64,000 bases of DNA from Citricoccus sp. K5. GTDB taxonomy: Bacteria > Actinomycetota > Actinomycetes > Actinomycetales > Micrococcaceae. Position 1 is the stretch's first letter. Every line of letters begins with the position of its first letter. Below, one piece after another: positions 22,966 through 26,439 of the stretch. Position numbers and translations under genes: made by a program. Under the pieces are notes generated by a model. It was not told the origin of the DNA, did not search any database, and worked only from the letters and a program-made list of their open reading frames with translations. The DNA is taken from contig NZ_LR732817.1 of the NCBI RefSeq assembly GCF_902506195.1, positions 1,688,909-1,752,908 on the forward strand. The letters are read 5' to 3'.

Positions 22966-23352
22966 CTAGCCTACCTGCTGGCGGTAACCCTCCGCATCGA
23001 GCAGGCCTTCAACCTGTGCGGGGTCCGAGACGGTCATCTCCAGGAGCCAGCCGTCCCCGTACGGATCGGAGTTCACCTTGGCCGGATCCGCGTCCAGGGT
23101 TTCATTGCGGGCCGAGACGGTCCCGGAGACCGGTGCGAAGAGGTCACTGACGGACTTGGTGGACTCCACCTCGCCGACCGTGGAATCAGCGGTGATCTCC
23201 GCGCCCACCTCGGGCAGGTCGACGTAGACCACGTCACCGAGCGCGTCCTGGGCGAAGTCGGTGATGCCGATGCGGACGACGCCGTCGGCGTCCGGCCCGG
23301 AGACCCATTCGTGTTCGGCGCTGTAGCGAAGCCCATCGGGGATATTGCTCAT
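22966..23352 (-). CDS. gcvH: Glycine cleavage system H protein
   Basis: Lipoyl carrier that shuttles the aminomethyl group between P, T and L proteins. 128 residues. Starts with [10 protein letters not shown]; the lipoylated Lys66 is in [12 protein letters not shown], and GDGWLLEM lies near the C-terminus, all standard. GGAGG precedes the ATG. The P and T proteins are not in the window; gcvH standing first in the gcvH-garA-merR-bfn cluster is the normal actinobacterial arrangement. No glycine riboswitch was recognised upstream. Confidence 0.95.
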
Positions 23353-23414: not shown

Positions 23415-24323
23415 CTACTGGCCTCCGTGGCGGGGTGCCAATGCCCCCGGAGGCTGACTCCCGACGGCGGCCAGCACCTCGACGACCCGGCCCCGGTCCG
23501 GCGCGGACACCGGCTCCAGGATCCGCTCCTGGACCCGTTCCACGGCGGGCCAGAGCTCGTCGACGAGCGACCGGCCCACCGAGGTCAGGGAGACCAGGCG
23601 GGAGCGACGGTCGTTCGGGTCGGGGCGTCGCTCCGTCCAGCCCCGGGTCTCCAGCCGCCGCAGTACGTCAGAGGCACTGGAGCGGTCGAGCGCGGCCAAT
23701 CCGGCCACGGCCCCTTGACCCGTGGGACCGGACGTGGCCAGAACCAGCATGACGGCGAACTGCGGGCCGGTGATGATGCCTCCCAGTTCGTCGGCCCACA
23801 ACACCGTGTGCCGTTGCTGCGCCAGCCGGATCAGGTGACCGGGACGGAGGTCCTCCTCCGTCTGGCGTATCTCGTGGCGGACGGAATCGCCGGACCTCTC
23901 CGCCGCGTCGTGATGATCCGAAAGCTCTACCAGCCGGCGCCCGAGCCAGGCGCGATCGGCTGCGGCCAGGGGTGCCATCAGCCGCTCCTGCACTGCGCGG
24001 ACTGCCGGCGTCATTCCCTCCAAGGCCACCGCGGCGGGCACGGGCAGGGTGATGACATGCCGCCGCGCATCGGCGGGATCACGCTCCCGCCGCAGCCACC
24101 CCTGACCCTCCAGGCGGCGGATCACCCCGGCCACCGTGGTCCGGTCAAGCCCCGCGGCCCGGCCCACGGAAAGCTGGTCCAGGGTTCCCTCGGCTGCGGC
24201 CACGGTGAACAGCACCGAGTACTGCGGCGATGTCAGCAACCCGCCCACGGCGTCCACCCAGAGCGCATTGTGCACCTGGTGGCATCGGCGCAGCTGATGC
24301 CCCACGAGGGCCCTGGAATCCAT
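23415..24323 (-). CDS. Tandem (double-headed) MarR-family regulator
   Basis: 302 residues containing two complete MarR domains, where family members normally have one and act as dimers. Domain 1 (about 15-135) has LLTSPQYSVLFTVA, LSVGRAAGLDRTTVAGVIRRL and wing GWLRRERDPADARRHVITL. Domain 2 (about 160-285) repeats the pattern: IITGPQFAVMLVLA, AVAGLAALDRSSASDVLRRL and GWTERRPDPNDRRSRLVSLT. The N-terminal part of each domain contains a matching H(Q)LRR/HLIRLAQQ helix. A single polypeptide probably forms a pseudo-dimer. AGGGAG sits six bases before the ATG. It is divergent from a flavin monooxygenase gene, and the gap holds repeated CAGTAC/TAC elements, so it most likely represses that gene in the absence of an aromatic ligand. 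Confidence 0.88.
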   Translation of the reverse strand: MDSRALVGHQLRRCHQVHNALWVDAVGGLLTSPQYSVLFTVAAAEGTLDQLSVGRAAGLDRTTVAGVIRRLEGQGWLRRERDPADARRHVITLPVPAAVALEGMTPAVRAVQERLMAPLAAADRAWLGRRLVELSDHHDAAERSGDSVRHEIRQTEEDLRPGHLIRLAQQRHTVLWADELGGIITGPQFAVMLVLATSGPTGQGAVAGLAALDRSSASDVLRRLETRGWTERRPDPNDRRSRLVSLTSVGRSLVDELWPAVERVQERILEPVSAPDRGRVVEVLAAVGSQPPGALAPRHGGQ

Positions 24324-24342
24324 ACGGATCTCCCTTGATATT

Positions 24343-24435
24343 CAGTACACGGATGAAGATCTGAACCCAGTATACTGTGGTTCACATCACCTGCGTGCGC
24401 TATGCTCGGGTCCGAATCGTGCAGTACACGGATGA
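24343..24435. promoter_or_regulatory. Operator cluster between tandem marR and monooxygenase
   Basis: A 14-base direct repeat, CAGTACACGGATGA, occurs at 24343-24356 and 24422-24435. Between them is the perfect palindrome CAGTATACTG (24368-24377). All three share CAGTAYAC. A CRP/GlxR-like TGTGGTTCACATCAC begins at 24376, overlapping the central palindrome by two bases. This suggests repression by the tandem MarR plus a carbon-source signal. Confidence 0.6.
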
Positions 24436-24462
24436 TCTGGCTGATGTTGGAGAAGGAGTCCC

Positions 24463-26439
24463 ATGCAATACCACCTGGACGGCTACCGCTACGGAGATCC
24501 CACGATCGAGCCGGCAGCCCCCGGCCGTGACACGGGGCAGGGCCCCCTGCCGGATGAGGTCGATGTCCTGATCGTCGGCACCGGACCGGCCGGCACCGTT
24601 CTGGCAGCGCAGCTGGCCGAGTTCCCGGAGATCACCACCCGCGTGGTGGAGCGCCGCCAGGGGCCGCTGCCCGTGGGCCAGGCCGATGGGGTCTCCTGCC
24701 GCACCGTGGAGATGTTCGACGCCTTCGGTCTGGCCACCGCACTGTTGGACGAGGCCTACTGGGTCAACGAGACCACGTTCTGGTCCCCGTCCTCCGAGGA
24801 TCGCGGGGGCATCACCCGCACCGGCCAGATCCAGGACGTCGCGGACGGGCTCAGCGAGTATCCACACGTGATCGTCAATCAGGCCCGCATGCAGGAGATG
24901 CTCCTGGCCAAGGCGTCGAAGTCCGCCTCCCGGCTGGAGGTCGACTACGGGTTCAAGGCCCTCGGCGTGGATATCCCGGAGGACCCCGAGGCGCGGGTGA
25001 CGGTCACCCTGGAGGTGACGGACCAGGACGGCAAGGGCACCGGCACCACCCGCACCGTCCGGGCCCGCTACGTGATCGGATGTGACGGTGCCCGCTCCGT
25101 CATCCGCACCTCGATCGGACGGTCCCTGCATGGCGACGCCCAGAACCACGCCTGGGGTGTTCTGGACATCCTCCCGGTCACCGACTTCCCGGACGTTCGC
25201 AAGAAGGCCGTCATGCAGTCCGCGTCCGGCTCCCTGCTCCAGATCCCACGCGAGGGCGGGAACCTGGTGCGCTACTACGTGGACCTCGGCGACCTCCCCG
25301 AGGGCGACCGCAGCGTCCGCGAGCGCACCACCTTCGAGGACATCCTCGCTGCCGCCCAGAGGGCACTGCACCCGTACACTCTGGACGCCAAGGACGTGGC
25401 CTGGTGGAGCGTGTACGAGGTCGGTCAGCGGGTGACGGACGGGTTCGATGACGTGCCGGCAGACGGCGTCGGAGTCCTGGCCCCACGGGTGTTCATCGCC
25501 GGGGACGCCTGTCACACGCACTCGGCCAAGGCGGGGCAGGGCATGAACGTGTCCATGCAGGACACCTACAACCTGGGCTGGAAGCTGGCCGCCGTGCTGC
25601 AGGGCCGCTCACCGAAGTCGCTGCTGGCCACCTACTCCGGCGAGCGTCAGAAGATCGCTCGGGAACTCATCGACTTCGACAAGCGCTGGTCCAAGATGAT
25701 CGGCTCCAAGGTCTCCGACCCGAACGACCCGGAGTCCGGAGGCGTCGCCGCGAACGACGTCGAAGCGCACTTCGTGGCCGGCGGGAAGTTCACGGCGGGA
25801 CTGTCCACGGTGTACGAGCGCTCCCTCCTGACGGGGGGAACGGAGCATCAGGGTCTGGCCCCCGGGTTCGAGGTCGGGACCCGGTTCCACTCGGCTCCGG
25901 TCGTCCGTGTGGCGGATGCGAAGCCGGAGCAGCTGGGCCATGTGCACGAGGCGGACGGCCGCTGGCGCCTGTACGCCTTCGGTGACGCCGTTGCCATCGG
26001 GTCAGAGACCTCGGCCCTCGGCGCGCTGCTGGAGTTCCTGGACACCTCCGAGCAGTCCCCGGTCCGCCGATTCACCCCGTCCGGGGCACCGGACGACGCC
26101 GTGTTCGATGTCCGGGCGATCCTCCAGCAGGAGCACCATTCCGTGGACCTGAACGCCCTGCCACCGTTCCTCCTCCCGGCCAAGGGCAGGTTCGGCCTGC
26201 GCGACTACGAGAAGGTCTTCTCTGCCGAGAGGACCAACGGTCACCTGCTCGGCACGGTTCCCGGCCTCCAGGTTACCCAGGACATCTATGACCTGCGTGG
26301 CATCGACCGTGAGCGAGGTGCCCTCGTGGTTGTCCGCCCGGACCAGTACGTGGCACAGGTCCTCCCGCTGGGAGCCCACACCGAGCTGGCGGACTTCTTT
26401 GCCGCATTCATGATCGATCAGGGCGTCGATCAGGGCTGA
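24463..26439 (+). CDS. FAD-dependent aromatic-ring hydroxylase (phenol 2-/3-hydroxybenzoate 4-monooxygenase family)
   Basis: 658-residue class A flavoprotein monooxygenase that hydroxylates a phenolic substrate with NADPH and O2. FAD motif VLIVGTGPAGTVLAAQLA (about 35-52); VIGCDGARSVIR (DG motif); and RVFIAGDACHTHSAKAGQGMN (GD motif, split here: AGDACHTHSAKAGQG) that contacts FAD. The C-terminal 170 residues form the thioredoxin-like phenol-hydroxylase dimerisation domain with GRWRLYAFGD and VVRPDQYVAQVLPL. Length and N-terminal style match MobA-type 3-hydroxybenzoate 4-monooxygenase, so that is the best guess; phenol is an alternative. GGAG lies four bases before the ATG. Downstream ring-cleavage genes are absent, so it would feed a pathway encoded elsewhere. 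Confidence 0.87.
   Translation: MQYHLDGYRYGDPTIEPAAPGRDTGQGPLPDEVDVLIVGTGPAGTVLAAQLAEFPEITTRVVERRQGPLPVGQADGVSCRTVEMFDAFGLATALLDEAYWVNETTFWSPSSEDRGGITRTGQIQDVADGLSEYPHVIVNQARMQEMLLAKASKSASRLEVDYGFKALGVDIPEDPEARVTVTLEVTDQDGKGTGTTRTVRARYVIGCDGARSVIRTSIGRSLHGDAQNHAWGVLDILPVTDFPDVRKKAVMQSASGSLLQIPREGGNLVRYYVDLGDLPEGDRSVRERTTFEDILAAAQRALHPYTLDAKDVAWWSVYEVGQRVTDGFDDVPADGVGVLAPRVFIAGDACHTHSAKAGQGMNVSMQDTYNLGWKLAAVLQGRSPKSLLATYSGERQKIARELIDFDKRWSKMIGSKVSDPNDPESGGVAANDVEAHFVAGGKFTAGLSTVYERSLLTGGTEHQGLAPGFEVGTRFHSAPVVRVADAKPEQLGHVHEADGRWRLYAFGDAVAIGSETSALGALLEFLDTSEQSPVRRFTPSGAPDDAVFDVRAILQQEHHSVDLNALPPFLLPAKGRFGLRDYEKVFSAERTNGHLLGTVPGLQVTQDIYDLRGIDRERGALVVVRPDQYVAQVLPLGAHTELADFFAAFMIDQGVDQG

Follow-up and report, generated by a model that had tools for sequence, protein, structure and literature searches.

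A regulator named MobR is said to control mobA in Comamonas testosteroni, in work attributed to Yoshida (2007), and is taken to be an ordinary single-domain member of the MarR family. The protein described here is likewise tied to a 3-hydroxybenzoate hydroxylase gene, adjoining and diverging from mobA, but differs from MobR in that two domains are fused in one chain; the two are likened by description rather than by sequence. MobR is stated to bind 3-hydroxybenzoate (PMC4737184), and MarR proteins more generally are described as obligate homodimers (PMC5487221). PcaV of Streptomyces coelicolor is a further point of reference: a homodimer with one domain per chain that controls pca genes, it resembles both halves of the tandem proteins at five almost invariant pocket positions, but not at three others (see below).

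Two-domain chains are found in the SarA family, SarS and SarU of Staphylococcus aureus among them (excerpts of PMC10715151 and PMC3616918). Like our regulator, these carry two winged helices from the wider MarR superfamily in a single chain, but they belong to the SarA branch and act in virulence-gene control, with SarS being only 8% identical over the alignment given below; in those same excerpts we see no link to an aromatic-acid enzyme. Among the matches listed from the open-access literature, we found no report of two-MarR-domain proteins outside the SarA family, nor of a two-headed MarR chain for aromatic acids. In our view the tandem corresponds to MobR in single-chain form—apparently with the same neighbour, operator type and pocket core, but with two heads in one chain—and, as the DNA site that it seems to use is of the type found with its unfused relatives, it represents an unusual design rather than a new kind of regulator.

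A tandem MarR regulator divergent from mobA

Within the window (the whole 64-kb stretch of DNA analysed), the regulator gene occupies positions 23415–24323 on the minus strand and encodes 302 amino acids from an ATG start, as delimited by its open reading frame, by Pfam and by full-length relatives. The Pfam MarR model (PF01047) matches two stretches of the protein, at 88.5 bits (cut-off 24.6), bearing out the original prediction of two full MarR domains in one 302-residue chain: domain 1 spans approximately residues 1–138 and domain 2 residues 158–290, with a linker of low model confidence (residues 139–157) in between. BagL/FevM (NF041230) is the top NCBIfam match, at 130.9 bits and below its cut-off of 230; this model describes one domain of 145 positions, whereas our regulator matches it in two separate stretches. 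SarA-type models disagree, PF22381 scoring 37.3 (cut-off 27) but TIGR01889 only 18.5 (cut-off 62.6). The best sequence match in the PDB is PcaV (4fht, 4g9y), at 68.3 bits and to domain 1.

Judged from its sequence, the divergent gene (24463–26439, plus strand) is closely homologous to that for 3-hydroxybenzoate 4-monooxygenase, MobA; its closest solved relative is 3-hydroxybenzoate hydroxylase (PDB: 2dkh; 744 bits), well ahead of the runner-up, phenol hydroxylase (373 bits), and it matches NF006144 at 938 bits (cut-off 560).

From this layout, and from relatives, we infer DNA binding, repression, autoregulation and the identity of the ligand. In the reading that we consider probable, two PcaV/HosA/BagL-type MarR domains, fused head to tail, would pack together into a pseudo-dimer within the chain, generating a single-chain, MobR-like repressor. 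This would bind to imperfect palindromes, each of 18 bp, in the intergenic space—O1 for its own gene, O3 for mobA and, in the window species, the weaker O2—and thus repress both mobA and itself. The ligand, probably 3-hydroxybenzoate or a close hydroxybenzoate, would occupy two composite pockets built from both halves; its binding would release the protein from DNA, inducing MobA and allowing protocatechuate to be made.

An 18-bp box shared with single-domain loci

The space between the two genes had been predicted to contain a 14-base direct repeat, with a perfect palindrome between its copies, and both are present: the repeat, CAGTACACGGATGA, at 24343–24356 and 24422–24435, and the palindrome, CAGTATACTG, at 24368–24377. 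The repeat is not due to chance. No further exact copy exists in the whole 3.88-Mb genome, in which two or fewer mismatches give 41 matches versus 18 for a reversed control; at the same tolerance three matches are seen in the window where 0.26 are expected, a number reached by just one of 100 shuffles. The palindrome is weak on its own, its type recurring with at most one mismatch in 14 of 100 window shuffles.

By score, the two repeat copies and the palindrome each correspond to a copy of one imperfectly palindromic 18-bp box, with the ideal form TCGTCAGT-NN-ACTGACGA. O1 (TATTCAGTACACGGATGA, 24339–24356) contains the first repeat copy, lies 15 bases before the regulator ATG and, at 19.1 bits, outscores every other site in the 64 kb; a model with all Citricoccus sites withheld from its training gives it 15.6 bits. 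O2 (AACCCAGTATACTGTGGT, 24364–24381; 8.6 bits) surrounds the palindrome, and O3 (CGTGCAGTACACGGATGA, 24418–24435), near the start of mobA, contains the second repeat copy; this last box is weak in the window species, at 8.4 bits, or 5.7 bits with the Citricoccus-free model. Together they are the three best sites of the intergenic stretch, the fourth reaching only −0.5 bits, and they coincide with the three elements first noticed there.

A candidate −10 element for mobA (TATGCT, 24401–24406, plus strand), chosen by eye from the alignment, sits just upstream of O3 and is found as TATGMT in all seven Citricoccus-clade rows; also by eye, O2 and the central palindrome may overlap the −10 of the regulator. 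A consensus scan found no sigma-70 site. Between the boxes, the segments TACTGTGGYTC, TCAC and TGCGNTATGMTCG (within 24373–24408) are invariant in the same seven rows and, lacking a fit to the sigma-70 consensus, may mark an unusual promoter or the site of another regulator.

Conservation differs from box to box. All seven Citricoccus-clade rows, the window counted, retain the sequence CAGYACACGGAYGA (O3, second repeat copy), and the first repeat copy is clear in three; O1 stands out in the window, G034 and G102, with only weaker candidates (4.8–6.3 bits) near the regulator in G060, G119, G133 and G082. With the model trained without Citricoccus sites, either O1 or O3 ranks first in all seven regions, while O2 is second in the window, has a score of 0.8 in G119 and is outside the first four in G034, G102, G060, G133 and G082. 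As a candidate for a conserved operator core, the central palindrome was rejected: in the alignment it is broken in the two closest relatives, G034 and G102, and reads CAGCATACTG in the other four.

A related 18-bp box lies upstream of mobA in other genera, including at loci with ordinary single-domain MarR regulators. A symmetric box model, its training seeded by a start pattern from L024 and L133 and the box itself first noticed in loci later tested, gave P ≤ 0.0175 in 11 of 12 regions when one lineage at a time was left out (eight at the floor of 0.0025), with G001 failing at P = 0.055; the 12 regions comprise eight tandem loci (three of them from the Citricoccus clade) and four single-domain loci, with rows of one genus not being independent. 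Control loci, carrying mobA without a MarR neighbour and evaluated by a model for which all 12 regions served as training (100 shuffles each), reached P < 0.05 in 4/47 cases and P ≤ 0.01 in none. A fixed pattern, for which the tests of L024 and L133 are partly circular since the start pattern was taken from them, gave P < 0.05 in 8/15 MarR-linked regions and in 0/47 controls; five more regions lie at 0.057–0.090, and G001 (0.897) and G452 (0.857) fail. Upstream regions of Paeniglutamicibacter and G975 are left out of these tests, and the other four Citricoccus-clade rows were scored only with the fixed pattern and the Citricoccus-free model.

These data bear directly on the original suggestion that different half-site types are available to unequal domains. 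The tandem would, under that idea, be an obligate asymmetric reader, domains 1 and 2 each ‘reading’ a half-site of its own (CAGT-type and TCRTCCGT-type), with the fusion having evolved to fix their orientation; the unlike halves within each repeat copy, the retention of the asymmetric CAGYACACGGAYGA at O3 throughout the Citricoccus-clade rows and the unlike recognition helices of the two domains (e.g. GLDRTTVAGV versus ALDRSSASDV) would all agree with it. However, the repeat and palindrome are scored as three instances of one box, and the same kind of box precedes mobA where the regulator is single-domain; there too its halves differ, as in the similarly uneven TCGTTGGGGTACTGACGA at G567, so that asymmetry is not tied to fusion, whilst the tandem of Phycicoccus has a near-symmetric box (TAGTCAGTACACTGACGA). 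We therefore regard an obligate asymmetric reader as unlikely.

Probable pairing of the two domains within one chain

AlphaFold predicts the 302-amino acid protein with a mean pLDDT of 87.6 and a pTM of 0.84, residues 139–157 and 293–302 falling below 50; for the distant G975 tandem the values are 89.0 and 0.85, the input relatives of the two models overlapping. A high pTM despite a low-confidence linker indicates that the two halves are confidently positioned against each other, structure prediction having originally been proposed as a check of pairing within one chain. We thus favour the proposed intramolecular pseudo-dimer of both MarR domains, on evidence from the pTM values and from a pocket core present in both halves (below), which is good but indirect. 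SarS (PDB: 1p4x) superposes on both halves of the model (Z 14.1, 234 residues aligned within model residues 1–272, rmsd 5.9, 8% identity), bearing in mind that helical folds give middling Z-scores from arrangement alone; in the PDB comparison with VIA-align it was, among the matches listed, mostly the second domain that aligned.

If the domains did not pair in-chain, two 302-amino acid chains might instead swap domains, forming a four-headed assembly able to span O1 and O3 and loop the intervening DNA. The distance between the two boxes (79 bp in the window, 78 in G034 and 79 in G102) and a linker of 8–25 residues in the 13 tandems aligned would both suit such an arrangement, but two equal domains without fixed placement should, we reason, give a pTM of about one half, as opposed to the values obtained for each lone chain; we hold it to be distinctly improbable.

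The ligand-pocket residues also favour an intramolecular pseudo-dimer. In PcaV, according to excerpts of PMC6882365, one protomer provides H21, W25, S35, Y38, A39, I110, M113 and N114, with L6, H9, G11, H12 and R15 supplied by the other. Across the 28 domains of the 14 tandems, and with L6 and H9 lying outside the stretch compared, the core of this pocket is kept (G11 and R15 in 28/28, H21 in 27/28, W25 in 26/28, H12 in 25/28), A39 (19/28), Y38 (17/28) and S35 (11/28) are less so, and I110, M113 and N114 occur in 0/28, most domains having V, V and Q at these points. Parts of both PcaV protomers are therefore present in both halves, which fits two composite pockets per chain; given the changed positions, the ligand is not readable from PcaV.

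At pocket positions 35/38 the window protein has S/Y in its first half and G/F in its second, and the second half has G/F in all seven Citricoccus-clade proteins. Tentatively, the fusion might let the two pockets diverge, with one chain sensing two related acids (3-hydroxybenzoate and its product protocatechuate, for example) or acting as a two-input gate; this possibility, which we think less likely to hold than not to, would go beyond what is open to an ordinary MarR homodimer, whose two chains are identical. With MarR proteins described as obligate homodimers, it is hard to alter one half alone; a natural single-chain MarR, in which each recognition helix and pocket would be separately mutable, would suit work on aromatic-acid biosensors.

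Occurrence, neighbourhoods and origin

A search of related genomes for the two-domain architecture, as the original prediction had advised, found intact relatives in at least 14 species, thinly scattered. At E ≤ 1e-30, full-length relatives with both domains are present in 9/295 family genomes, the window's own counted: seven of one genus (the Citricoccus clade, window included), G001 and G022 (Paeniglutamicibacter). At the order level 2/396 genomes were matched, with both domains covered only in G000; at the class level 55/394 were matched at E ≤ 1e-30, two-domain proteins being seen in G000 and in G975, where the tandem is a single 314-amino acid open reading frame. A scan of named records, using one peptide pattern on the best 80 of 384 relatives, gave further tandems in Agromyces sp. 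H66, Microbacterium lacus, Phycicoccus sp. CSK15P-2 and Streptomyces fuscichromogenes. G750, considered as another on the basis of a match to 86–281 in a 381-amino acid frame, proved on inspection to be single-domain. In G003, from the window's genus, no tandem was found at E ≤ 1e-30; its top monooxygenase match (E 7.6e-181) is in the range of a more distant type, the seven tandem genomes of the genus giving E 0.

With the tandem intact in separate assemblies, both single-contig and draft, from 14 species, and no point found in its support, the idea that a frameshift or assembly error joined two genes, raised at the outset as what might undo the prediction, can be excluded.

mobA adjoins the tandem in 11 of the 14 tandem loci, and was not found in the stretches examined around the other three (Paeniglutamicibacter, Streptomyces and, over 10 kb, G975). 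The neighbours in Paeniglutamicibacter (an FAA hydrolase, an FAD monooxygenase and a cupin protein) and in Streptomyces (a cupin protein and an FAD monooxygenase, with a Rieske/VanA_C protein on the opposite side) are other genes of aromatic-acid type. The G975 tandem (L159:1018–1962, minus strand) adjoins an open reading frame that, by eye, resembles hydroxymethylglutaryl-CoA lyase; an extra MarR-like match (L022:4957–5238, minus strand) lies near the tandem and mobA of Microbacterium lacus. Amongst 59 mobA-like loci (best matches only, with flanks of about 1.5 kb, a few shortened by contig ends), a tandem MarR is present at 8 and a single-domain MarR at 4, and the remaining 47 show no MarR match at E ≤ 1e-3. 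Related bacteria offer a natural comparison of the regulator next to mobA in its fused and unfused forms.

As to the origin of the fusion, AU tests, for which groups were named after the tree had been seen and rows L003, L005 and L093 were dropped as long branches, did not reject a single clade of all 28 tandem domains (p-AU 0.479), and mildly rejected clades of all first halves (0.025) and of all second halves (0.014). For Citricoccus plus G001 the first and second halves do separate (99/89 and 91/79), the G001 rows being long branches.

The monooxygenase query finds a match at E ≤ 1e-150 in 271/295 family genomes and, as most of the matches listed are at about 50–56% identity, a paralogue of this type looks widespread in the family. 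A second monooxygenase of the same family, 51% identical, is located at G000:C1:3285343–3287223, and four places in the genome match the intradiol dioxygenase family PF00775 above its cut-off. On the other side of the regulator, gcvH (22966–23352) begins 62 bases past the stop codon on the same strand, so that the regulator may be read through into this gene for the glycine-cleavage H protein.
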